NCBI RefSeq assembly: GCF_018687715.1
Contig: NC_056766.1
Span: forward strand, 26,950,433 to 27,014,432
Length of the DNA: 64,000 bases
Source: Carya illinoinensis
Taxonomy: Eukaryota > Streptophyta > Magnoliopsida > Fagales > Juglandaceae
Direction of reading: 5' to 3'
Shown here in pieces: positions 1,422 to 64,000 of this stretch. Under the pieces are notes generated by a model. That model made no database searches, was not told where the DNA came from, and worked only from the letters and a program-made list of their open reading frames with translations. A program made the position numbers and the translations under genes. The number at the start of each line of letters is the position of its first letter. Within the stretch, counting starts at the first letter, position 1.

Positions 1422-4154
1422 ATAGTAAGTATGGTGAAAGACATGACTTTTCTAAAAATATTATATGTGTACGAGTTGGAAATCTCTTTTTACATACTCA
1501 AGTCATGAATGACGTAATTTTTTATAACTAGGATAAATCATAAATGCCATGATTTTATGTGCATATTTCATGAAATTTGGCATTCCACATACATCACAAT
1601 AATTCACAAACAGTCATAATTTTATGTGGTTTCCAGGCATTATGACATTCTATGACAAGCCATGATTTCAGGTGATTCCCATGCATTACAATATGATATG
1701 GCACGCTATGATTTTATGTGAAATCCATCCATCATGACGAATGTATAATAGTTAAGATATGTAATGGCATATATTATGATATGTATGATGGTACGATGAG
1801 GTAAGCGCATATTACATTTCAAGGATAGTCATACTGGTAGTGGTAGTTCACCCAGATTTGTCATTCTTATATATGATTTTCTAGTCCATGGCTATGGGTG
1901 GAATCAAATTTTTCATTGGGCTTCATAATTTTTTTTTAGCATAAGATTTATAATATATATATATTTTTTGCAGTGAGTTAGATTCATTTTACCCATTAAA
2001 CTATAGCACTTAGTGTCATCAGTAGTAAGCTTAAGGGTTAACTATGGATGGTTTAGTTAGCAAGCCATTAGTTCTACACTTAAGGCCCTTAAACCCTTAG
2101 AATGTTATGGGCTAAGACTTGAAAGCCTTGAACCAAGCCTTGTAAGAGTTTAACTCTTTATAAGAAAGCATTAGAAAGACTTGGCCTAAGTGTGAGGAAG
2201 GCATAAGGCTTTTTGGGCCTAACTTAGTTTTAGCTTTGACCGATGGCCCATTTCTATTAAGACAAGCTTTTCAAGCCTCATTTTTGTGGATCTTGAGGGC
2301 TCTCATGACCTCTTAAAATCTAGAATTAAGGCCTCCTATCAACCCACACCCAAAGCCCATAAACCATGTAAGTCTCTTTCGTGGCCTTTTTAAACCCAAC
2401 AAAGGCCCAAAGCCTTATCTGACATTTTCACACTTCCATTTTAAGCCCACATACACCGTACCATTGGTTTCCCTCAAACCATATTGTACCCCATGCCCTA
2501 AGGATTTCTTTTGACCCAAATTAAGTTTTGAACTTGAGTTAAGAGCATTAATCAACTTCCATTTGATTAGTAGTATCTAAACCATATTTTAAGCTTAATT
2601 TCCTTTTTAAATATTTCTCACATTTTTTATCTAGAATTTATTATTTTTATTATTATTTTTCATCATTCTTAGACCAAATTAGAAGATTAGTCTTAATCCG
2701 ACACATGTCATTAGAGGCAAATACATGTCAATGCCCAAAACATCACAATCGGTGCCCTAATGCATCACTTGGTGCATTGGACTAATTTAGCCTAGCTCAC
2801 ACTTTTTTCATTCTTTTTCCAAGGGAATTTATATCTTTTAACATCTCACATTACACCCTTAGTTCAGTTTGAGTATTGTTTATTTTTTTGCTTGAGGAAA
2901 CTAAGCCAAAGAAGCCAACTGATTCAATTGGAGGCCAAGTTGAAGCCAAATTGAATGGCTTATGTTTGGTTGCACTTTTGCACATGGCTGAGCCACCACC
3001 ACACACCACCCCCTCATCCTCCAATCCCAAAGAGCCCTCTAGTCATCATGAAGGACCTTGACTCAAAGCCACCTTAAATAGGCCAAAATCGATTGGCTTT
3101 TTGTGCATGACACCACTCGGCAACCACCCCCAAATTCACCCTCTTCTTTGAGCCACCACCCAAATTCACTTGGCAGCCAGTCTTCCACCATCTACCACCT
3201 AAAAAGGGCCTCCAAGGGTGTCATTATACTTGTGCATTTCAGTCACAGAGATAAAACAAAGAGTTGTAGATCAAGGAAGTAAAAATCTACCCAGATTTTC
3301 AGAACCATACCTGGCGGCATCATGGCATGACTCCATGCCTCCTTGCTGCACCACGGTAGCCCTACCCTTAGCCTCCTTGCAGCACCTGACCATGTTGAAA
3401 TCATGTCAGCATAGGGCACTATTCAAATCTGCAAAGGATGACACAAGTTGGAGGTATGCATCATCACCACCACCATCCACTACACCAATCACAAGGCTCT
3501 CCTCCAAGCCATGACTGGCATCTCCCTCCCCTCTTAAAGCCTATTAAAACCCCATCCATGCCCTCATTTCTCCACACCACTTCTCAAACCATCTCTTGAG
3601 TTCTTGAGAGCTTTTCTCCTCCTAGTGTGCAAGAGAGTTGAAGACGAGTTGCTTGTGAGAGTGATCTTGAGGTGAGTGAGTTTGAGAGCTTTTGAGGCCA
3701 CAATTTTTATAAGTATTCTTGCTTAATATCTTGATAAGTATTAGAACAACATGTTAGGTTTAATTTATGCCATGAGAATGAGTTTTGTTTGAGTTTAAAT
3801 AAGGTTAGCATGCTAAGTTCAAAACTGGGTCAGATTTGAAGTTTTGTTTGAATTAATTATGTTGGGTGGAATTTTTAGCCATGGAGTTGGTATGATTTTA
3901 TATCATTCATTAATGTCTTAGAATGATTTTTTAATGTTTAAATTTAAGGGTGAAAATATCATTCTCCCTGGATTGGCATTTTTTTCCCTTCTCTTAAACG
4001 ACCCATTCTCCCTCTCCTACAATTTTTCGGTAATTTTTTATCCTTTAAATTGTGGGTTCCTAGATTGGCATCACCGAGCTCTTTTTCAAATGGTGGTAAG
4101 ATCTCCTCACTCACTCTTTGATCTCAATCTCACACAACTTCCACTCCGAGCTCG

Positions 4155-47820: not shown

Positions 47821-50800
47821 TCATTTCAATGAACTAGAAATACACATAGGGTATTCCTCCATAGTGATGATACAATCTGAAATGGAAAGAGCATTCTTTG
47901 CAAGAATGTGAGCTACAACATTACCATCTCTCCTAACATGAGAGACTTCCCACCTTGCAAACTTTACAAGTCCTAACTTAGCTTCGAAAAGGAACATGCT
48001 GGAACTGCACCACACCTCTTGGTCCCTCTGCAAAGCTTGTATGGCTTGGACTGAGTCACCTTCCAGCACCACCTTTGACAGTCCCAGGTCCCTTGCAAAC
48101 TGAACAGCCTTTAGAGCCCCATATGATTCGGCCAGAAAAGGATCTGTGATTAGAGATTTCCTTTGCCTCAGTGTTGCTACAACCATGCCTTGACAGTCCC
48201 TTACTACCACTCCCACCCCAACAAAACCCTTTACTTTGTTCACAGCCCCATCCCAATTTACTTTAAACCAACCCTGAGGTGGTGGCCTCCACTCAGTTTT
48301 AGAAGAAGTTGTCCTTCCATGCATGTGGACCTGCTGACTTGCCCTTCCTTGTTCCTCCTGGTCCCATTGAATTCTCTCTTTCACTTCCCTGATGATCTTG
48401 TATGGCGGACAGAACTCTTGGTTGAAGATGAATGCATTCCTTCTTAGCCATAACTTCCTTGCCACTACTGTGAACTCCTCGAGCTCCTCTTCAGTGAGAA
48501 ATTGGAAAAGCCTTTCTAGGAGTTGCAACATGGGGGTGTGGGACAGTGTGCATTTTTGTAATCTCTTTGAGCATTGGCCCCATACATCTCTGGCAGCTTC
48601 ACACGACCACAAAGCATGTGTTGAGTTCTCTTCCTCTCTTTGACATATAAGGCACAAAGGATTTGGGACAATTTTCTTTTTGGAAAGATTGTATTGAGTT
48701 GGAAGAGTTTCTTTACATGCACGCTAGAGGAACATTCTCTCACTAGGGGTGACTTTAAGTTTCCATATTCCTCTCCAAATTTCACTAGCACTAGTGCTTG
48801 ATGATGCTTGACCCTTGACAGCCACCTCCCCAGCCTTTTCCAGGTGGTAAGCACTTCGAACTGAGAAGGAACCCCCTCTTGATCCATTCCATACCAGCTT
48901 ATCTTCTGTTCTGAGGGAGCTTATAGGTATCCTAAGAATCAAGTTAGCTTCCTCCTGGTCAAAAACTTCCCTAAGTAGCTCAAATTTCCAGCACTTATTG
49001 TGTGGGTCAATGAGTTCAGATACACTTGCATTTGCTTCAAGGATCTTCTGGTTGCTCGTGGCCTTGGTGGGTGTGCTCCTAAGAATCCATTTATCTGTCC
49101 ACACTTGAGTCTTTTCTCCTGTGCCAATTCTCCAATAGGCCTCTTTTTCAACCACATGCCTAGCAGCAATTAAGCTTCTCCATACATAGGATGGTTTTGA
49201 TCCAATCTTGGCTAGAAGAAATGAGGATTTAGGGAAGTATTTGGCTTTTATCACCTTTGCTGCCAGAGAGTTAGGGTCCTGGAGAATTCTCCAACATTGC
49301 TTTGAAAGTAAGGCTTTGTTGAAGATTTCCAAGTCTCTAAAACCCAACCCTCCATCCCTCTTCGACTGCCCCATCTTCTTCCATGAAAGCCAGTGTATTT
49401 TGTTTCCTTTTTCTTGGTGACCCCACCAGAAATTTGCCATTGCACTGTTGATAACTTGTAGGAGACTTAATGACAATTTGAACACACTCATTGTGTAGGT
49501 TGGCAGTGCTTGCACAACAGCTTTCAGGTATATTTCTTTCCCTGCCAAGGAGAGGGGTCTAGTAAACTTGCTGTTCAGCTTCTGCTTTATGTTGTCTAGG
49601 ATTGCCTTGAAGGTCTTAACCTTGTGTCTCCCAACAACTGAGGGAAGGCCCAAATACCTTTCATAAGGCATTGTTGTTCTGACCCCTGCAATTGATGTGA
49701 TGTAATCCTGAGTAGCTCTTGCTGTGTTTTTGCTGAAAATTATGGATGTTTTCTCAATATTCAACCTTTGCCCCGAAGCCATTTCATAGCATTTCAAAAG
49801 ATTTATCAATTTGGCCCATTCTTCAGCTCTTGCCTTGCTAAAAACAAGGCTATCATCCGCAAAGAAGAGGTGGGAAACCTTCAGTTGACCTCTGGCTACT
49901 GGTATACCATGTATATACTGTTCTCCTCAGCTTTGGTTATTAAATTACTTAAAGCCTCTGCACACATGATAAAAAGGTAGGGTGACAGAGGGTCACCTTG
50001 CCTTATACCTCGAGTTGGAGAGAATTGTGGTTGAGCTGTTCCATTCACTAGAAGAGAATACTTGACTGTCTCTACACACTTCATCACCATTTCCACCCAT
50101 TTTCTGCAAAAACCCATCTTGTAGAGGATTGCTCTTAGGAAACCCCACTCAACTCGATCATAAGCCTTGCTCATATCGAGTTTGAGTGCCATATAGCCCT
50201 CTTTTCCTGCCATTCTACACTTCATAGTATGTAGTGCCTCAAATGCCACTACTATATTATCAGATATTAATCTAGAAGGTATGAATGCTGATTGAGATGG
50301 TGAAATAATACACGGCAGGATCCTCTTTAATCTATTTGCAATCATCTTAGATATAATCTTATAAATTACATTGCACAATGAGATAGGTCTGAAATCTGTT
50401 ATCCTTAGAGACTCCTTCTTCTTTGGTATGAGGGAGATGAGTGTGTTGTTGATGCTCTCCAAGCTGCCTTCTGAGTTCAGACAGCTTCTGTAACTTGGTC
50501 TCCTACAATACTCCAGTGCTTTTGGTAGAAAAGGGTGGGGAAGCCATCCGGGCCTGGTGAGCTCATCCCTTCCATATGGAAAACTGCATCTTCTACTTCC
50601 TGTCTACAATAGTCTTTGGTTAGTTGCACATTGTGTAAGTTGGTTACTTTGGCCTCCAAAGAAAGAACACATTCAGTTTCTAAATTGGGTCTCTAGGAAG
50701 TGAAAAACTCAGTGTAATACTCTTGAAAAAGGCCATTGATTCCATCTTTTGAATCTACCATTTGGTCTTGGTTATCAAGTATTCCCCTAATGAGATTTGT

Positions 50801-51925
50801 TTTCCTTCTCTGTGTAGCAGCTTGGTGGAAAAACTTTGTATTCCTGTCTCCCTCCTTCAACCACTTCTTCTTTGCCCTTTGCTTCCACTTGATGTTTTCC
50901 ATTTCTAGTGCTGTATCTATATCTCTTTGAAGGTGTCTTATTTGTTCAGTTAGGTGCCCTGAATTCCTGTTTTGGAGCTGAGCTAGTGCATCCATGTTAT
51001 CCCTTACCCCTATTCTTGTGTTTCCAAACCTTTTCCCACTCCACTGGGTCAATTTTTCCTTGCAGTGCTGGAGTCCTGCTAACATGCACTCCATCCTTCC
51101 TCTAGCAGTTTTTGGGGCTTTCCATGAGTTTTCCACTTGCTTGTAGCACTCATCATCTAGGAGCCACTTAGCTTCAAACCTGAATGTCTTTGTTTCTGAG
51201 GGGCCTGGTCTTGGTAGTTGGTTGTAGGTGATCCATAGTGGACTATGGTCAGAACTAAGAGTTGGAAGTATGTGAACTCTTGCATCATTGTTTTGGTCTG
51301 ACCATTGGCCATTACAAAAGGCTCTGTCCAACCTTTCTTTAATGAAATCTGGTCCTTGTCTCCCATTGTTCCACGTGAACTTACTTCCAACATACCCCAT
51401 ATCAAAAAGGCCACACTTAGTCACTGCTTCTTGGAACCTGTCCATCTGTTTTTGTGGTCTTGCAGGGCCCCCCTTCTTCTCATTAAAATGGAGCATTTCA
51501 TTAAAATCTCCAACACATAGCCATCCCAAATTGGCACTAGGATTCAAACTTTCCAAAAGCTCCCAGCTACCCCTTCTTGCTTCTGTGACAGGGTTTCCAT
51601 AAAAACCAGTTAGAATCCATTTCTTTGGTACATGCCCGGTTGAGACTTGTATGGATATGTGTGAGTTGGTGTATGAGATCACCTTTGCCTCCGTGTCTTG
51701 CTTCCATAGAAATGCAACACCACCTCTGGCCCCTACTGCATCAACAATAAAACTGTTTTCATACTGCAACACTCTCTTGACAGTTTCCATGCTAGGTCTT
51801 CTGCTCTTTGTTTCCATTAAGAAAACAAAGGTGTGAGACTTTGATTGCACTAAAAAATGCAAGTTATTCACTGTCCGAGGGTTTCCAAGCCCTCGACAGT
51901 TCCAGCTCAAGCAACTCATAACCAC
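47821..51925 (-). pseudogene. LINE ORF2 (endonuclease, RT, zf-RVT, RNase H)
   Basis: Order of domains: APE-like endonuclease 51925-50960 (LSWNCRGLGNPRTV, METKSRRPS, CVGDFNEMLH, SSDHSPLW), then reverse transcriptase 50659-49700. The RT shows FRPISLCNVIYKIISK, KLDMSKAYDRVEW, GIRQGDPLSPYLF and FFADDSLVF. The zf-RVT region follows (GGSFSVRSAYHL; CLICQREEENSTHALWSCEA), then an RNase-H-like domain 48290-47930 (FKVNWDGAVNK, AESYGALKAVQFA, LEGDSVQAIQ, HVRRDGNVVAHILA). Breaks are TAG at 50693-50695, a 1-nt loss near 50478, a 1-nt loss near 49905, and TAG at 48724-48726 replacing a Trp codon. The catalytic motifs themselves are intact. Confidence 0.9.
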
Positions 51926-53349
51926 TGGTGGGGCTGGGATCCAGCCACCACCATCTCATCACCATTTTGTTGTTCTGGTTCCACCCCCTCCTGTTTTATT
52001 TTTTTCCTGTGTGACTTGACAGAGGAAGAGTCCTCATGGTTCTGCCTTTTTCTTGAAACTGGAATGGTATTTTCTTTGTTACTAGTTGCCTCAGTAGTAA
52101 GGTTGCCCAAATTTTTGTCACGAGCCTTTCTCTTCCATGTGGCCTTTTTCTTAATTTCCGGCAGCACTTGCACCTGATCAGAGACAAAAAGGGCTAAAGA
52201 TGACACTTGGTCCTTAAGCCCATCAGTATGACCTTTTCCCACTGGGCCTTCTTGAGGCCTTTTTTGTTGACATGTTTGTATATCACTATTTGAGAATTCT
52301 AGTTTGTTGCTTTTTCTCATTAAGCACGGTTCAGTTTGGTTTATATACTCAGAAGTGACATTATACATAGGTAGCCTCACTGTTTCCTCTACAGGAAGGA
52401 AGGTACCTTTTACAAGTGATGGGTTGGCAGAGGTCTTCTTGTTTCCTCCTCGAGCTGCTGAACTGTCTGCATCAGTGTGTTTTGGTGTCTGCATGGTTGG
52501 TGAGATGTCAGGTTCCTTGGTAGCAAGGTCATCCCTGACCTCCTTGTCTATTTTCCATTGCTGTTCACCGTGGTCATGCTTGCTGCTATTTGTTCCATAC
52601 TTTTTCTTCTCACCATCCATAGGTTTGGTTGCTGGAGCTTGTAACCATGGTCCATACTACCTCATTTCACTACATGTGTTGTTAACAGAACAGCCTTTGG
52701 CATTGTGCTTTATGCAACCACACCTAAAGCACAGGTTGGGCAGTCTTTCATACTTCAGAACAATCCATGACTTCTTCCCTTCAATCGTAAGGAAAAGACC
52801 TCTTTGTATTGGCTTTGTAATATCAAGTTCCACCTTCATACGTATGAATTCTCCCCAGCATATCCCTCTGGTATCTGCTTGTACTTCTAAACATTTTCCA
52901 ATGCTATTTCCAATCTGTTGGCCAACATCAATATTCATGCTTGCAAAAGGTGTGTTGTGTGCCTGCACCCAGAAGATCTCCATGGAGAAAGGGATCTCTT
53001 TAACTGACTTCTTTCCATCGAATGAATGTAAACAGACCAACCATCTGTCAAAACACCATGGCCTTCCTTGTAGCACCTGTTCCAGGTCCTGTTCTAGGTG
53101 AAATTCTACCAGATATTGGTTGCTCCCTACCTTAGAAAACTGCATCCAGCTAGTGCATTTCCAAACTTTTGCTATAGTGTTTTTGAAAGCCTTCTTATTG
53201 ACAGCCCTCTCAGCGATGACCATAGCCAGTAGACAATGTTGTCCTTGTTGCACCATCCTTTCCTTTGAGCTGTGTGAGATAACAACCACTCCTTGCTCCT
53301 TTTCAGTGAGGCTGAGAGCCTCCCATTTCATAGCTAAATCCTCTTCCAT
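51916..53349 (-). pseudogene. LINE ORF1 (DUF4283 and zinc-knuckle protein)
   Basis: About 478 codons in one frame. The N-terminal part is a DUF4283-type domain (MEEDLAMKWEALSLTEKEQG, WMQFSKVGSNQYLVEF, GRPWCFDRWLVCLHSFDG). It is followed by a zinc knuckle CFRCGCIKHNAKGC near 52690 and a charged, disordered C-terminal region rich in Lys/Glu/Ser. A TAG at 52654-52656, just after NTCSEMR, splits it into 230 and 234+ codon parts. By family knowledge ORF1p binds RNA and chaperones the LINE transcript. Confidence 0.85.
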
Positions 53350-55628: not shown

Positions 55629-55633
55629 TGGTC
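55629..55633. repeat. Target-site duplication (left), TGGTC
   Basis: TGGTC precedes the TGTTGAACTC start of the copia 5' LTR and is repeated at 63847-63851 after the CA end of the 3' LTR. Confidence 0.85.
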
Positions 55634-57037
55634 TGTTGAACTCAAGGTTTCAAGTTTTGTGTAATTATATATCTACACATGAATTTTGATGATAACAAAT
55701 GAATTCAAAGAATAAAGAAGTCTCAAGCTCAACTTATCTACACAATGGAGTCAAGCACATCAAGGAAACAAGCATGAGCAAGAAGGGAACAAGTTCACAT
55801 TAAAGTTATAAAGTAATGTTGTAAATCTCTTCAAAATTCGAAATTAGGATTAATGTTCAAAATTAATATTTTATCATAAAGCATTAAAATACTTTTTCCA
55901 CATGTGCATGAATATTTTGAAAATTAAATTTGAAAATTTTGAAAGATGATTGATTGTCATCTTTCACATGTGCATACCTTGATTAAAGGATTAAACTTTG
56001 AAAATATTAAAGATGATTGATTGTCATCTTTCACATGTGCATACCTTGATTAAAGGGTTGAAATTTAAAAATATTAAAGATGATTAATTCTCATCTTTCA
56101 CATGTGCATGTTTTATTTGAATATTTTCAAAAGTGATTGATGCTTTTTTAGACTTATACAAAAGGTAGATGATTTTGTTTGAAATATTTGAAAAGTAAAG
56201 TGTGCTCCTTTTGTCATATGCAAAAAGTAAAAGATTAGGTTTGAATTTTTTAAAAAGGAAAGTGTGCTCCTTTTGTCATATGCCAAAAGTAAAAGATTAG
56301 GTTTGAAGTTTTTGAAAAATGAATGATGTTGTCTTTGACAATTGAAAAGGAAGAACCTTTTATTTGAATTTTTTGAAAAAGTGAATGATGTTGTCTTTGA
56401 CATGTGAATCTTTTTAAATTTGAATATGAAGTCTCATATGCCTATAAATAGATCATTTGAGAGCTTCACATTTACAACATCCAGAGCATACAACATTCAT
56501 TCAAAGCTTTCATTCTCTCTTCTCTAAGCATTGAGCCTTAATTCTTGTTCATTTTGAGAGATATAGTTTGTGCTGTATTGTTCTTATTTCACTCATTGAG
56601 GAGTGTTTTCTGATAACCTACCCACTATCAGCTCTTGTATCAGAAAAAAGGTGTGTATAACCCTTGTGCGTGTAGAAAGTATTCTACACGGGGAATAGTT
56701 GAATCACCACATGTAAGGTGATTGTAAGTGTAGAGGGTGTTCTACACGGATCCTTTGTAGCGGTGTTGTTCAAAGGTGTAATAGGTTTCTATCTTCACCT
56801 GAAGGAGATTGAATAGTGAATTCGGGAATCCTCAAGGGATAGCTTGAGGCGAGGACGTAGGCAGTGGGGCCGAACCTCGTTAACATACTGAGTTTGCTTC
56901 TCTCTTACCCTTACTCTTTATATTTATTGCTATTTCATATTTTGTTTATATTTTATATTATATATTTGATTTATAATTGTTATTTTTTTAATACAACTCA
57001 ATTCACCCCCCCTCTTGGGTTAGTCATCTGGGCAACA
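55634..57037 (+). mobile_element. Copia 5' LTR (1404 bp)
   Basis: Runs TGTTGAACTCAAGG to GGGCAACA. It contains three 67-bp tandem units (hairpin arms at 55942-55964, 56009-56031, 56076-56098), a ~62-bp repeat twice (AGTGTGCTCCTTTTGTCATA), TATAAATAG near 56443 as a plausible TATA box, and the C-rich CACCCCCCCTCTTG near its end. Confidence 0.88.
56441..56450 (+). promoter_or_regulatory. Probable TATA box of the copia LTR
   Basis: CTATAAATAG, followed about 30-40 bp downstream by a likely transcript start region (ACATTTACAACATCC). The same site is conserved in the 3' LTR near 63290. Confidence 0.6.
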
Positions 57038-57056
57038 ATTGGTATCAGAGCTAAGA
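57038..57056 (+). other. Copia primer-binding site
   Basis: TTGGTATCAGAGC immediately after the 5' LTR, complementary to the 3' end of initiator tRNA-Met. Confidence 0.9.
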
Positions 57057-57096: not shown

Positions 57097-58731
57097 ATGG
57101 CTAACATTTCAGCTTTATTTGGTGAAGGTCAATCTAGCAGTTGGCCTCCACTTTTTTGTGGAGATAATTACTCATTCTGGAAAGTTAGAATGAGAATATT
57201 CCTTCAGGCTCAAGCTCGAGAAATCTGGAAATGCATTGTAAATGGACCTTATATTCCAACAAAAGTGGTTGATGGAGTAAAGGTCAAAAAGGAAGAAGAA
57301 GAGTTTGATCGTGAAGACGATAGACTTTATACTTTGAATTTAACTGCTACGAATTTATTATTTAATGCTCTCAATGGAAATGAGTTTAATAGAATAATGA
57401 CTTGTGCTACGGCAAAAGAAATTTGGGATAACTTGGAAGTTACTTATGAAGGAACTTCGCAAGTCAAAAAATCAAAAATTTATATTCTTACTCATGAATA
57501 TGAAATGTTTAAGATGAATGATGATGAATCTATTTCTAGTATGCACACTCGTTTTACTAACATCATATACAGATTGACAGCTCTTGGCAAACTTTATTCC
57601 AAGGTGGAGATAGTAAGAAAAATTCTCAACTCTCTACCAAAACGCTGGGAATCAAAAGTGACAGCGATTCTTGAAGCTAGAGACCTCAAGAAGCTCGAAG
57701 TGAATGAACTCATCGGGTCACTTATCACCCATGAGTACACATTGAAAAGAGGAGAAGAAGAAGGAAAGCCAAAGAAGAGCTTGACACTTAAAGTTGTTCC
57801 TCATGAAAGTGAAAGCGATGACGATGAGGAAAATGAAGATAAAGATGAAGAAGTTGCGATGATAACAAGAAGAATTTAGAGGTTCTTAGAGAAAAATAAA
57901 ACTCCTCCGAGGAAATCATTCAAAAAGTTTTCCAAGAAAGATTCAGGTAAAAATGACACTTTAATTTGTTATAAATGCAATAAGCAAGGTCATATCAAGC
58001 CAGATTGTCCTCTGCTAAAGAAAGATCGAAACAAGGGCAAGAAAGCAATGAAAGCTACATGGGATGATGATTCAAGTAGCTCAGATAGTGAAGCAAGTAA
58101 TGGAGAATCAGCAAATCTTTGTCTTATGGCTAAAGATGACATTGAGGTAACAAATCTTGATAATATTGAAGATCCTTCATATGAAGAATTACAAAATGTC
58201 TTAGAAGAGGTATATGAGGAATTTGAAAAATTGGGTATTAAATATACTGCTTTGAAAAAGAAAAATTCTTCTTTAACAAACGAAATTGATATTTTAAGAA
58301 AAGAAAGTATCATTTTAAAAGATGAAAATCTTGAGTTGAATAAGAAGAAAATTGATTTAGAAAATATTGTTGAAAACTTTACGAATGGAAAAAGAAATTT
58401 TGAAAAACTTCTTGGTAGTCAAAGATGTGTTTTTGATAAGGCAGGCTTGGGATATATGCCAAAACAAAAATACAAACCTTATAAAAATTTCTTTAATAAT
58501 CCTTCTACATCAAAGACCAATATTCAAAATTCTTTTCATAAAAATAATTTTGTCAAAAAGAGATATTATTATAATCATTCAAGTTTTTCATATATGTCAC
58601 ATGCTATTTGCAATTTCTGTAATAGAAATGGTCATAATTATCATGCTTGTCATATTAGAAGAAATCATACAATGACTATTAGGGCCATATGGGTACCTAA
58701 AAATCTTGTTTCTTCTACTACTAATAAATAA
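57097..58731 (+). pseudogene. Copia gag, interrupted by one stop
   Basis: One reading frame from ATG 57097 to TAA 58729-58731, broken only by TAG at 57877-57879 after MITRRI. Residues 1-260 are the UBN2/DUF4219-type capsid (WPPLFCGDNYSFWKVRM, EIWDNLEVTYEGTSQVKKSK, LNSLPKRWESKVTAI). Downstream are zinc knuckle 1 CYKCNKQGHIKPDC near 57970, an acidic Ser-rich region, a coiled-coil stretch, and zinc knuckle 2 CNFCNRNGHNYHAC near 58610. The stop lies where a Gln codon would be one C-to-T change away. Confidence 0.88.
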
Positions 58732-58789: not shown

Positions 58790-59089
58790 ATGAAGTCATC
58801 CACAAGCAAAAACAAGTGGTTTTTAGATAGTGGATGTTCAAGACACATGACGAGAGACAAGACTAAGTTCTTTGATCTTAGATCTAAAGAAGAAGGACAC
58901 GTGACATTTGGAGACAACTCGAAAGGGAAGATCGTGGGAATAGGTAAAATTGGTAATGAATCTTCTCTCATAATCGAAGATGTTCTACTTGTTGAAGGTC
59001 TAAAACATAATCTTTTGAGCATAAGTCAATTATGTGATAAAGGATTTACGGTTACTTTCATGTATTTGGATGCAAATGTTTTATTTTGA
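58790..59089 (+). pseudogene. Copia protease remnant
   Basis: Reads WFLDSGCSRHMTRDKTKF (catalytic Asp-Ser-Gly), VTFGDNSKGKIVGIGKIG and GLKHNLLSISQLCDKGF, a typical copia protease core. It lies one frame off from gag, so a small indel lies between about 58731 and 58790. The frame ends where integrase should begin. Confidence 0.85.
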
Positions 59090-60006
59090 ATGATAGAGAT
59101 AATTTAGGCAAGTTTGATGCAAAATCTGATGAAGGTATCTTTCTCGGGTATTCTACTAATAGTAGAGCTTATAGAGTATTCAATAAAAAGACTTGAACTG
59201 TACAAGAATCTATGCATGTAGTATTTGATGAATCTAATTCTCCACTCTCCAAGAAATCTATTGATGAAGAAACAGGAAGTATAAATAATACGGAAAGTCT
59301 CAATCTCAACAAAGAGAACACAATAGAGGAAGTTCAACATGGAGTCATCAGGAAAGATCATCAAAATTTAATACAAGATGCAACCAAACAATAGAAATTT
59401 GTGATAGATCATCTAGTGGAACAAATTTTGGGAGAATCTTCACGAGGTGTAAGTACTCGATCATCTGTTAGAAATATTTGCAATCATACTGCTTTTCTAT
59501 CTCAGTTTGAACCCAAAAATATTGATGATGCACTTCTTGATGAATCTTGGATTCTAGCTATGCAAGAAGAGTTGAATCAATTTTAAAGAAATGATGTTTG
59601 GACACTTGTTTCTAGACCTAAAAATCATACTATTATTGGAACAAAATGGATTTTTAGAAATAAGAAAGATGAGTCCGGAGTCATTACTAGAAATAAGGCT
59701 CGACTTGTAGCTCAAGGTTTTAATCAAGAAGAAGGAATCGATTATGATGAGACATATGCACCAGTCGCAAGATTAGAAACTATTTGAATGTTACTTGCAT
59801 ATGCTTGTTATAAAGATTTCAAACTTTTTCAAATGGATGTTAAAAGTGCTTTCTTAAATGGTTTTATAAATGAAGAGGTATATGTTGAGCAACCTCCAGG
59901 TTTTGAAAATCATATTCCTCAAATCATGTTTTCAAACTCACAAAAGCACTATATAGACTTAAACAAGCTCCTAGAGCTTGGTACGAGAGACTCAGTGGTT
60001 TCTTGA
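59066..60006 (+). pseudogene. Copia integrase tail and N-terminal RT, multiply broken
   Basis: The integrase zinc finger and DDE core are absent. Near 59070 the protease frame joins directly to the late-integrase LGKFDAKSDEGIFLGYS region. Stops follow at about 59194, 59392, 59583 and 59785. RT begins [32 protein letters not shown] and FKLFQMDVKSAFLNGFINEE. A 1-nt frameshift near 59925 precedes the KALYRLKQAPRAWYERL block. Confidence 0.82.
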
Positions 60007-61043
60007 TTGAAAAAGGTTTTTCAAGAGGAAAAATCGACTCAACTCTTTTCATTAAATATGAAAATGATGATATTCTTTTGATTCAGATTTATGTTGATGA
60101 TATAATATTCGGTGCTACTAATGAAAATATGTGTCAAGTTTTTGCTAAGACTATGCAGGAAGAATTTGAGACGAGCATGATGGGAGAACTTACATTCTTT
60201 CTCGGATTGCAAATTAAGCAAGCAAAAAGTGGAACATTCATCAATCAATCAAAATATATTAAGGAATTACTGAAGAAGTTTGGGATGGAAAATGCTAAGA
60301 AAATTGGAACACCAATGAGTCCATCAACTAAACTTGATAAAGATGAATCCGGTAAGCCAGTTAACTCGAAAATATATCGAGGTATGATTGGTAGCTTATT
60401 ATATTTAACAGCCAGTAGACCAGATATTATGTTTAGTGTGTGTTTATGTGCACGCTTTCAATCATCTCCAAAAGAATCACATTTAATTGCAGTTAAGCGC
60501 ATTCTTAGATATCTTAGTGGTACAATTAACCTAGGGTTATGGTACCCTAAGCACACATCTTTCGATCTAATTAGTTACACAGATGTAGATTATGCTGGCT
60601 GTAAAATAGATCGAAAAAGCACTAGTGGAGCATCTCATTTCTTAGGTCATGCACTAGTTTCCTGGTTTAGTAAAAAATAAAATTCTGTTGCACTATCTAC
60701 TGTTGAGGCAGAATATGTTGCTGTGGGTAGTAGTTGTGCTCAAGTTCTCTACATGAAGCAACAACTTGAAGGTTTTAAACTCATGTATAATCACATTCCA
60801 ATCAAATGTGATAATACAAGTGCTATAAATCTTTCAAAGAACCCAATACAACATTCTAGAACTAAGCATATTGAAATAAGATATCATTTTTTTCGAGATC
60901 ATGTGCAGAAAGGTGATATAGTACTAGAGTTCACAAACACACACAATCAGTTAGCAGATAAATTCAAAAAACCTTTACCGGAAGATAGATTGTGTATGAT
61001 TAGAAGAGAAATAGGTATGATGCATGTTGTAAATATCTCTTAA
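60003..61043 (+). pseudogene. Copia RT palm and RNase H
   Basis: 60003-60680 is open and holds the RT active site YVDDIIFGATNE, FFLGLQIKQ and YRGMIGSLLYLTASRPDI. It then enters RNase H (SYTDVDYAGCKIDRKSTSG). One TAA at 60678-60680 interrupts before NSVALSTVEAEYVA. The remainder, to TAA at 61041, has CDNTSAINLSKNP and SRTKHIEIRYHFFRDHV. Most catalytic positions remain. Confidence 0.88.
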
Positions 61044-61091
61044 AAGATAGATCAGAGTTCATAAAAATATAAAGATATTTTTTAAATACTT

Positions 61092-61529
61092 TTACATAAA
61101 CTTGAGGTTCTTAGCCTCATGTTTGAGACGCTCATTCTCTTCATAGAAAATCATGTCATCCCTATCCATGGGAACTGGCAAGCGGAATGAAGAATCTAAT
61201 AGAGATTTTAACTGTTTATTCTTCTGCTGAATGATTCCTTCCCTTGTGTGAGACTCTTGAACAATTCGTTGAAGTACAACAATTTTTTTTTTAAGCCTTT
61301 CAACCTCATGGTTTTTGGCTTGTACTCGCTGGGAAAAGGCAACAATAGAGGATGAGTAGTGAGTCCCAAGACTCACCAAGTCGTAGATAGCATCGGAGTC
61401 TGACTTATTAGCCAAACTATTATTCTCTTGCTGAAACATGGCACCAATGGTAGCTGCAGAAAGGACAGGAGGTTGAGGTGCAGAATGCCTCATGGATGGA
61501 TCTAGAGAAATGTTAGAAGAATGAGCCAT
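61092..61529 (-). CDS. Antisense coiled-coil ORF A inside the copia element
   Basis: An open frame of 145 codons read opposite to pol. I chose the ATG at 61529 (MAHSSNISLD) because the upstream frame extension is unlike the rest and ORF B also starts with MA and a Ser-rich segment. The N-terminal third is Pro/Ser-rich. The middle has LSAATIGAMFQQENNSLANK, then SIVAFSQRVQAKNHEVERLK with KKIVVLQ, a predicted coiled coil, and the end is charged (YEENERLKHEAKNLK). A TATA-like TATAAAATC (minus) lies about 105 bp upstream at 61632-61640. It is similar in layout and partly in sequence to ORF B. Function is unknown. It is not the sense-strand env-like ORF described for SIRE elements. Confidence 0.55.
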   Translation of the reverse strand: MAHSSNISLDPSMRHSAPQPPVLSAATIGAMFQQENNSLANKSDSDAIYDLVSLGTHYSSSIVAFSQRVQAKNHEVERLKKKIVVLQRIVQESHTREGIIQQKNKQLKSLLDSSFRLPVPMDRDDMIFYEENERLKHEAKNLKFM

Positions 61530-61772
61530 TGAGAAAAGAATAGAAGGCTTAAAACGAAAATGTTGAAGCAATGCAGATGAGTTATAGAGATGAGATGAAA
61601 ACTTGATGCGGATTGGATGAACTTCAGGATTGATTTTATAGAGATAGCATAAAGAATAAGACAAACTATTGTCTCTTCAAATCTTATTTAGTCAAAAGAA
61701 ATACAAGATATGCTGGACACACTTTGTCAAAAGTTTTCTTACTAAGCCAGCGAGATTAACAGTAGATTGTCC

Positions 61773-62225
61773 CTATTTTTCTAGTAAACGATGAACCTCT
61801 ACTGTTATCTGCCGATGTTGACCTTGTATCTGAACCCTTTCTTGTTCCAGCTCCTCTATTCGTGGTTGCAGATCATGAGCATACCAATCTGCAAATTTTT
61901 TCAACTCTTGGTTTTCTTGCTTTAGCCTTTTATTCTCACTATCCTTATTAGCAAGCTTCTGTCGTAACTCAAATATTTGCATGTTAAGATGATCAATCTC
62001 ACTTACCCTCGCCATTAACCTCCGAGACATGATCGTAACAGAGGCAGCATATTGACTACTGAGCATTCCTGATTCTGCAATAATCTCAGAATCAACCTTA
62101 CTAGAAAAATGGCTCTCTGCTCCTATCATGATATTGACGGCCTCAGGAGAGAAGATTGATGATTGATGCGTCAAGGGTTCCTGATTCAAGTCTGGAACAT
62201 TAGTGGAAGAGAATTGCTCAGCCAT
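61773..62225 (-). CDS. Antisense coiled-coil ORF B inside the copia element
   Basis: An open frame of 150 codons: MAEQFSSTNVPDLNQEPLTH, then FSPEAVNIMIGAESHFSSKV and SQYAASVTIMSRRLMARVSE. A long heptad-type coiled coil follows (LNMQIFELRQKLANKDSENK, LKQENQELKKFADW, IEELEQERVQIQGQHRQI). It aligns with ORF A over the middle (S-E/A-A..IM...ES...K.DSE..., then SxxAxSV..S.R..A...E...L...I..L). A TATA-like CTATAAAAAA lies 86-95 bp upstream at 62311-62320. No stop or frameshift interrupts it although gag and pol of the same element are broken. No known domain was recognised. Confidence 0.55.
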   Translation of the reverse strand: MAEQFSSTNVPDLNQEPLTHQSSIFSPEAVNIMIGAESHFSSKVDSEIIAESGMLSSQYAASVTIMSRRLMARVSEIDHLNMQIFELRQKLANKDSENKRLKQENQELKKFADWYAHDLQPRIEELEQERVQIQGQHRQITVEVHRLLEK

Positions 62226-62648
62226 TCTATCGTTGTGAAAAAAAAAAAAAAACAGAACTCAGGTCAAGAAGCGATTATTTTTTTTGGCATCCGATAGATG
62301 AAAATGATCTTTTTTTATAGCAACTCAGAGTCTTCAATCACGTTTGTCAACAACATCAGGAGATTGTTTAAATCTCCAGCCGCACTAAATTCATAGAGTT
62401 AGGCCTCGAGACTTTACAGCATTTGTCGGGTCACGGACGGCTCCTTTCTCAACTATCTACAGTGTCTATTAATGTACCGTTTTCTTCCGTCCATTTATTT
62501 GCTGCCGATCCTTTTTAATGATGCCAAAAGGGGGAGAAGTGCTAGAATAGAACATTAATATTGTTTGAATTGCTAAACTTGTTATATATGCTTGGAATTA
62601 TATTCATACTTTTGCTTGAAAAACTAACGCACATTCTCAGGGGGAGCT
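62226..62648. other. Copia internal DNA before the 3' LTR
   Basis: Holds two polypurine stretches, CCAAAAGGGGGAGAAG near 62524 and CAGGGGGAGCT near 62639. Such purine blocks are repeated in the 3' internal region of SIRE-like elements. Neither is followed by the TGTTGAACTC LTR start. Confidence 0.6.
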
Positions 62649-63846
62649 TAAAGTTATAGAGTAATGTTGTAAATCTCTTCAAAATTCCAAATTAGGATTA
62701 ATGCTCAAAATTAATATTTTATCATAAAGCATTAAAATACTTTTTCCACATGTGCATGAATATTTTGAAAATTAAATTTGAAAATTTTGAAAGATGATTG
62801 ATTGTCATCTTTCACATGTGCATACCTTGATTAAAGTGTTAAACTTTGAAAATATTAAAGATGATTGATTGTCATCTTTCACATGTGCATACCTTGATTA
62901 AAGGGTTGAACTTTGAAAATATTAAAGATGATTGATTGTCATCTTTCACATGTGCATGTTTTATTTGAATATTTTCAAAAGTGATTGATGCTTTTTTAGA
63001 CTTATACAAAAGGTAGATGATTTTGTTTGAAATATTTGAAAAGTAAAGTGTGCTCCTTTTGTCATATGCAAAAAGTAAAAGATTAGGTTTGAATTTTTGA
63101 AAAAGGAAAGTGTGCTCCTTTTGTCATATGCCAAAAGTAAAAGATTAGGTTTGAAGTTTTTGAAAAATGAATGATGTTGTCTTTGACAATTGAAAAGGAA
63201 GAACCTTTTATTTGAATTTTTTGAAAAAGTGAATGATGTTGTCTTTGACATGTGAATCTTTTTAAATTTGAATATGAAGTCTCATATGCCTATAAATAGA
63301 TTATTTAAGAGCTTCACATTTACAACATCCAGAGCATACAACATTCATTCAAAACTTTCATTCTCTCTTCTCTAAGCATTGAGCCTTAATTCTTGTTCAT
63401 TTTGAGAGATATAGTTTGTGCTGTATTGTTCTTATTTCACTCATTGAGGAGTGTTTTCTAATAACCTACCCACTATCAGCTCTTGTATCAGAAAAATGGT
63501 GTGTATAACCCTTGTGCGTGTAGAAAGTATTCTACACGGGGAATAGTTGAATCACCACATGTAAGGTGATTGCAAGTGTAGAGGGTGTTCTACACGGATC
63601 CTTTGTAGCGGTGTTGTTCAAAGGTGTAATAGGTTTCTATCTCCACTTGAAGGAGATTGAATAGTGAATTCGGGAATCCTCAAGGGGTAGCTTGAGGTGA
63701 GGACGTAGGCAGTGGGGCCGAACCTCGTTAACATACTGAGTTTGCTTCTCTCTTACCCTTACTCTTTATATATTTGATTTATAATTGGTATTTTTTTTAA
63801 TACAACTCAATTCACCCCCCCTCTTGTGTTAGTCATCTGGGCAACA
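62649..63846 (+). mobile_element. Copia 3' LTR, lacking its first ~166 bp
   Basis: Similarity to the 5' LTR begins at TTAAAGTTATA (5' LTR position 55800) and continues to the shared end GGGCAACA, with roughly 3% differences by eye over the first 300 bp and a ~40-bp deletion near 63770. The three 67-bp hairpin units are at 62790, 62857 and 62924. The first 166 bp of the 5' LTR have no counterpart here. Confidence 0.85.
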
Positions 63847-64000
63847 TGGTCGAAGAGCAAGCTCAGGCCAGTCCCAACAGATGCCTTTGCCCCACAAAAG
63901 AGGCCTCCGGTGTATGGGCCTTGGTTAGACTAAAAGCCCATCACGAACCCAACCCTCTTCAAGGCTGCACCAAGGATTGGGACCCCGACTGGGTCGCTCC
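63847..64000. other. GC-rich flank, continuation of the host repeat
   Basis: TGGTC at 63847-63851 is the right target duplication. The remaining sequence is GC-rich like 55560-55633 (GGGCCC, GCCCAGCCCAGG) and is probably the other half of a repeat into which the copia element inserted. It runs off the window. Confidence 0.5.

Follow-up and report, generated by a model that had tools for sequence, protein, structure and literature searches.

The window, a 64,000-nucleotide stretch of the Carya illinoinensis genome (contig NC_056766.1, positions 26,950,433 to 27,014,432), contains an LTR retrotransposon of the Ty1/copia type in which two minus-strand open reading frames, denoted here ORF A (61092-61529, 145 codons) and ORF B (61773-62225, 150 codons), are located past the RNase H end (61043) and ahead of the 3' LTR. 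The element is bounded by a TGGTC target-site duplication (55629-55633, repeated at 63847-63851). On the plus strand, a 5' LTR of 1404 bp with TG...CA termini (55634-57037) is followed by a gag region (57097-58731) with two ORFs, the first of which (57097-57879) matches Retrotran_gag_2 (E = 1.9e-32), the second (58048-58731) being assigned by position only, and by a pol remnant (58790-61043) with RVT_2 in 60003-60680. The plus-strand piece at 60723-61043 is what we take, from its position, to be the RNase H end. Both gag and pol are split into separate open pieces, in line with the interrupted frames described in the initial annotation. Relative to copy L056, the 3' LTR (62648-63846, plus strand) is missing its first ~166 bp, and ~60 bp at the end of the internal region are gone as well. 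Divergence between the LTRs (K2P = 0.0186, 1198 sites) indicates that this element copy is young; open frames here alone would thus mean little, and the evidence comes from other copies.

The LTR/PBS junction, CA-ATTGG-TATCAGAGC (57036-57051, plus strand), matches exactly, from position 57036, the Sirevirus junction given in passages of PMC2829016. Further Sirevirus marks given there are several AGGGGGAG polypurine tracts close to the 3' LTR, of which the last stands 10 bp before the LTR, and a C-rich integrase signal ~19 bp long and ~21 bp from the LTR end. Two AGGGGGAG octamers are present on the plus strand (62529-62536 and 62639-62646); the terminal site was lost with the deletion in the window copy, and a one-base variant occupies it in L056. 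In both LTRs, a seven-C run (CACCCCCCC, then TCTTG) ends 20 bp short of the LTR end when counted from TCTTG, the comparison covering the run and its distance only. By the junction and the C-rich run, the element is a Sirevirus-type Ty1/copia element, in keeping with the copia element named at the outset. Elsewhere in the window, the minus-strand ORFs at 47821-53349 resemble what is presumably a LINE (endonuclease- and RT-like).

Both minus-strand frames were recovered with the positions and lengths originally reported. The 1606 bases from 61043 to 62648 contain no sense ATG-initiated ORF of at least 60 codons, and dinucleotide shuffles of this interval yielded one or more same-strand ORFs of at least 140 codons in 13 of 5000 cases and two such ORFs in 0 of 5000. 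The products of A and B are similar to each other (BLASTP E = 3e-8, 24% identity over 94 columns), with a Smith-Waterman score of 100 compared to a shuffle maximum of 70 (n = 2000); for the N-terminal halves, the score is 59 and the shuffle maximum 55 (n = 2000). On this similarity, A and B are judged to be diverged paralogues and the duplication to be old, in agreement with the ancient duplication suggested in the initial annotation.

ORF A encodes a predicted basic (pI 8.9) and ORF B a predicted acidic (pI 5.5) helical protein. AlphaFold models, each built from 8 sequences, show long helices whose N-terminal parts are poorly predicted (mean pLDDT 78.5 for A and 81.4 for B), so no function follows from them; a fold search of the PDB with the A model returned 0 matches at E values up to 10. 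Pfam searches with A and B gave nothing above the curated cut-offs, the sub-cut-off matches being to two unrelated families for A and largely to coiled-coil families for B. TRP28 (PF04195), the mark of Retand-type antisense ORFs, was absent from the Pfam matches of both proteins at E values up to 1. Among close relatives of A sought in IMG/VR, 21 stretches fit a pattern and 0 were confirmed. Residues 12-17 of ORF B read DLNQEP, a segment kept in one decayed copy (L076) and absent in another (L084). We assume that it fits DLNxxP, an EAR-like repression motif; this reading was set aside as too weak to build on.

Searches of the pecan genome itself for A and B covered 674 Mb in 17 contigs. All of the best 150 of 4579 candidates scored for A are full-length and 131 are free of stops; for B, the best 150 of 4258 candidates are likewise all full-length, 147 without stops, in both cases a sample that favours intact copies. 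Homologous ORFs are thus present in related elements, with frames open beyond the window copy. Many matches have scores equal to the decimal. Two copies of A, P0005 and P0006, are annotated as hypothetical proteins in C. illinoinensis, and copies of B occur in tandem at a spacing of 7842-7843 bp (G000:C1:15282240-15306215 and C5:13100859-13109151), as expected of arrays of elements sharing LTRs.

From these best-150 lists, we examined 40 distinct A copies, leaving out second fetches of the same place (L009 for L001, L053 for L018, L016 for L051). They comprised 10 copies from window-type copia elements with A and B (denoted WC), 13 from main-type copia elements with A and B (MC), 3 from copia elements where no B appears within the stretch fetched (AC), 13 in Ty3/gypsy elements (GY), and 1 chimera (L011); these class numbers are no census, 20 of the 40 copies having been hand-chosen, partly by frame length to include likely gypsy copies. 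GY copies were defined by their flanks, and WC and MC were split chiefly by the similarity of A to that of the window. Mean A distances are 0.037 for WC-GY, 0.072 for WC-MC (partly so by construction of these two classes), 0.070 for GY-MC, and 0.032 for AC-MC, such that the gypsy A is nearer to the window-type copia A than the main-type copia A is. The mean WC-MC distance for B is 0.038, and in two loci (L019 and L067) a WC-like A stands next to an RNase H tail of MC type; within one element, A and B apparently differ in their history, as far as these sequences indicate. Of the 13 WC or MC copies that cover the RT/RNase H junction, 6 carry a stop there (60678-60680 in the window), mixed across subfamilies; the idea that this stop might characterise an entirely non-autonomous family was accordingly dropped.

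For codon analysis of A, 38 of the 40 copies were used (L063 and L003 were left out for length). Between types, dN/dS was 0.16 for MC-WC (dS 0.24), 0.165 for MC-GY, and 0.34 for WC-GY; within types, it was 0.29 (MC), 0.33 (WC), and 0.55 (GY). With fixation defined as 80% or more, MC plus AC differ from the rest by 4 nonsynonymous and 12 synonymous fixed changes, and singletons comprise 54 nonsynonymous, 2 stop, and 32 synonymous changes (Fisher p = 0.0056; 0.0064 without stops), the neutral opportunity being 2.94:1. The loci were chosen by protein similarity, which lowers dN, but the singletons of the same sample are still much nearer to neutral. A more distant comparison is provided by P0010, a protein 56% identical to A that marks another family (all 150 scored matches at 91% identity or above): almost full-length alignments of the window A to five P0010-like sequences gave dN/dS of 0.26-0.35 at dS of 1.05-1.24. 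ORF A behaves as a gene and is constrained as a protein.

The test of dN/dS across element copies, proposed for both ORFs in the initial annotation, gave low values for A and no clear constraint for B. The codon set for B comprised 11 of 23 copies, 12 being left out for length, mostly because the fetched stretch ended inside B. In these 11 copies, dN/dS was 0.33 within MC, 0.85 within WC, and 0.68 between groups; 4 of 6 WC copies carry a stop, and the shared variants comprise 13 nonsynonymous, 1 synonymous, and 1 stop. Comparison of B with pieces of decayed B (L084, L076, L075, L088, and L080) gave dN/dS of 0.21-0.68, one further piece (L074) being saturated. A-B pairs bearing stops are found in L084, L076, L075, and L088, which implies that the pair is old. 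ORF B is therefore old and shows no clear constraint within the family.

Each ORF is preceded on the minus strand by TATAAA, at -111 for A (61635-61640) and at -94 for B (62314-62319), matching the TATA-type motifs noted initially. TATAAA precedes A in all 42 matches with an assigned context (two of the 42 being second fetches), at -111 or -112 in 41 of them, and precedes the ORF in 44 of 46 P0010-like matches (one of the 46 being a second fetch, L052 with L021), at -108 in 36; mono-shuffles gave 8%. Relatives of A at ~50-57% identity keep TATAAA near -108. Such conservation is expected from relatedness within families, not between families at dS near 1. The leader is free of ATG in 38 of 41 A copies and in 39 of the 44 P0010-like matches with TATAAA (0.43 and 0.40 in the respective shuffles; second fetches included in these counts), and upstream ATGs are present in 13 of 14 B leaders. 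We infer from the TATAAA box that A has a putative promoter of its own.

The gene is shared with a second carrier, L053, in which the Pfam order RT, RNase H, integrase (RVT_1 in 43-1983, RT_RNaseH and then rve in 2055-4091) assigns the element to Ty3/gypsy on domain order; the gypsy carriers are presumably Athila-like, to judge by sequence features. The A homologue of L053 (4516-5178) is located downstream of pol on the same strand. Window positions 61087-61669 are about 95% identical at the DNA level to this gypsy element over 584 bp, and a leader segment (62299-62386, minus strand) shares 84% identity with the leader that precedes ORF A in L053. The module common to the Ty3/gypsy elements extends over 61087-62444 (minus strand), with the gypsy version lacking ORF B. 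In the A-only copia element L056, the shared block forms a single alignment of 748 columns with 92% identity and 16 gaps. Wherever gypsy pol is in view, A is sense to it (L015, L018/L053, L020, and L016/L051; for the second A of L051, pol is absent from view in the fetched stretch), and A is antisense in those copia loci where the RNase H is visible. Hence, A and its leader are a module common to the copia and Ty3/gypsy superfamilies of one genome. The copia location and antisense orientation originally described hold for the window element and its copia relatives, but the gene is not copia-specific and is sense in Ty3/gypsy. Likewise, the antisense pair consists of real paralogues, but B is without clear constraint, and no B accompanies A within the fetched flanks of the gypsy copies, the three A-only copia copies, or the P0010 family. 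In L051, a gypsy fragment is flanked by two A genes in inverted orientation, and the leader is repeated.

In L052, a representative of the P0010 family, the A homologue is antisense and lies between gag-like pieces, with a zinc knuckle just below the cut-off (E = 5e-4), and an RNase H-like end. This end has no Pfam match; the corresponding end in L039 overlaps with a match of 31% to the RNase H piece of the window. Comparison of SIRE-type pol pieces with L052 and the other checked P0010-like loci gave no match except in L039 and L090. The P0010 family is apparently a pol-deficient, copia-like one, a classification that is supported in outline and draws in part on general sequence features. Related A genes were also found in L094, where the element context is not recognisable, and in L075. 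P0011, considered as a further family of this genome, was rejected because its best match is only 58% identical; it is probably from another species.

How the module came to be shared was addressed with a tree of A rooted with four P0010-like sequences. This tree groups WC, GY, and the chimera (support 99/99) to the exclusion of the main-type copia copies, with the root inside copia; a single clade of MC plus AC is rejected (AU p = 0.021), by only 2.35 log units. In the chimera L011 (G000:C14, ~2559395-2559829), gypsy pol is followed by 49 bp from the 3' end of a copia element, by the leader with A, by the RNase H tail of a copia element, and finally by gypsy sequence from which the module is absent. 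The tree and the chimera together favour movement of the module from copia to gypsy, as far as these alignments allow it to be inferred. The opposite course, in which the module, a sense 3' ORF in Ty3/gypsy, passed from there into copia, is unlikely in our estimate, although the AU test does not reject rooting on the gypsy branch (p = 0.126), the best tree puts the gypsy rows and the chimera on one side of a weakly supported branch (78/82), and L011 could be a later, separate recombinant. Under both outgroup and midpoint roots, gypsy A sequences fall inside or beside the window-type copia A; at least two additional copia-like families (L084; L075 and L088) have A-B pairs, as does L076, where no pol is in view, and the examined gypsy copies have A without B within the fetched flanks. 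Moreover, copia sequence lies on both sides of the module in L011.

We consider it probable that ORF A is a selected, self-promoted accessory gene of LTR retrotransposons that has been exchanged as a module. The module would consist of the leader, the TATA box, a mostly ATG-free 5' leader, and the ORF, the product being, if translated, a 16.5-kDa helical, coiled-coil-like protein. In the Sirevirus-type copia elements, A would be transcribed from its own promoter, antisense to gag-pol. ORF B would have arisen by an old tandem duplication and been kept in some lineages and lost from others. The A module would have moved from copia into an Athila-like Ty3/gypsy family in inverted orientation, hence its sense direction there, most likely by template switching or recombination.

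The antisense unit might instead matter as RNA, with a TATA-driven transcript tuning sense expression or silencing and the ORFs being incidental. Conservation of the TATA box across families and the lack of clear coding constraint on B would fit this account, and antisense RNA is named as a possible role in a review (PMC7264820). Yet the A protein is constrained, with 4:12 fixed nonsynonymous to synonymous differences and dN/dS of 0.16, or ~0.3 over a dS of 1, and the module is sense in gypsy, so that it cannot be antisense to gag-pol there; we regard an RNA-only role as improbable. Still less probable is that A is a recently captured host gene spread by the elements, as raised in the initial annotation for both ORFs. 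The two copies listed as hypothetical proteins in the Carya annotation would be compatible with capture, but relatives of A with readable flanks adjoin element sequence (although in a few, L082 and L094 for example, no pol could be recognised within the stretch examined) and the A-B duplication dates far back. Capture found no support among the best 150 candidates, a sample that element copies fill and in which a host source may be missed. Chance ORFs, open only because the insertions are young, can be practically dismissed: the identical scores of many copies, to the decimal, and an LTR divergence of 1.9% in the window element would fit, but two such ORFs appeared in 0 of 5000 shuffles and homologues align nearly full-length at dS of ~1.

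For the selected accessory gene that we favour, the nature of the benefit is constrained by the carriers. These have unrelated gag-pol, and one family is apparently pol-deficient; the benefit of A is therefore probably not exerted via the element's own capsid or polymerase. A benefit that survives a change of superfamily, of orientation, and apparently the loss of pol is likelier to be host-facing than linked to gag-pol. Tentatively, A might act as a self-assembling coiled-coil protein with a host-facing regulatory role, for example in keeping the element's chromatin or transcripts expressed. The fuller scenario, in which a cassette exchanged between copia (antisense) and gypsy (sense) and kept by a pol-deficient family encodes a protein acting on the host, such as an anti-silencing factor, is possible but doubtful. 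The regulatory or trafficking role suggested initially for both proteins is a conjecture.

Antisense accessory ORFs downstream of pol have been described in Ty3/gypsy families, where most copies carry them (PMC7264820, PMC11963269, and PMC4093653). The Grande, Retand, and bean antisense ORFs share this position and orientation with A and B in copia, although the elements are Ty3/gypsy; the Retand ORFs contain the TRP28 domain, whereas A and B match no Pfam model above the curated cut-offs, and the bean ORF2 proteins are 211-939 aa long (PMC4093653), compared to 145 and 150 codons for A and B. Grande gene23, described in PMC7264820 as having its own promoter and a nuclear product, is proposed as the nearest functional parallel of A, by analogy of working and without a claim of membership. 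Within Sireviruses, the sense env-like ORF (eORF-3'F) occupies the same linker between pol and the 3' LTR; in a 2019 survey with a 250-codon limit (PMC6317226), a sense extra ORF was reported in 74% of SIRE elements. Unlike eORF-3'F, A and B are antisense and fall under that limit, and A is common to gypsy. In bdelloid rotifers, ORF3 genes are shared between retroelement classes (abstract of PMC5408684), a likeness to A in that a single accessory ORF type occurs in unrelated retroelement types; the rotifer ORF3 genes, however, encode enzymes or env, A is a plant coiled-coil ORF, and a switch from antisense to sense is absent from that abstract. Among the titles and abstract openings of open-licence PMC text, we recognised no report of antisense ORFs in Sireviruses and none of an ORF common to copia and gypsy elements of plants; a grapevine copia paper (PMC2576258) uses none of the terms looked for, antisense and additional ORF among them. 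Thus, antisense accessory ORFs were already known in Ty3/gypsy, and we found no report of the combination described here, one gene that is antisense in copia and sense in gypsy.

The role of antisense accessory ORFs in plant retrotransposons is an open question in the papers cited here. Selection on A in copia and gypsy, in opposite orientations, implies that its role cannot require an antisense position relative to gag-pol or one type of gag-pol. The finding also suggests that surveys limited to ORFs of at least 250 codons miss such genes, and A documents gene traffic between the copia and gypsy superfamilies.
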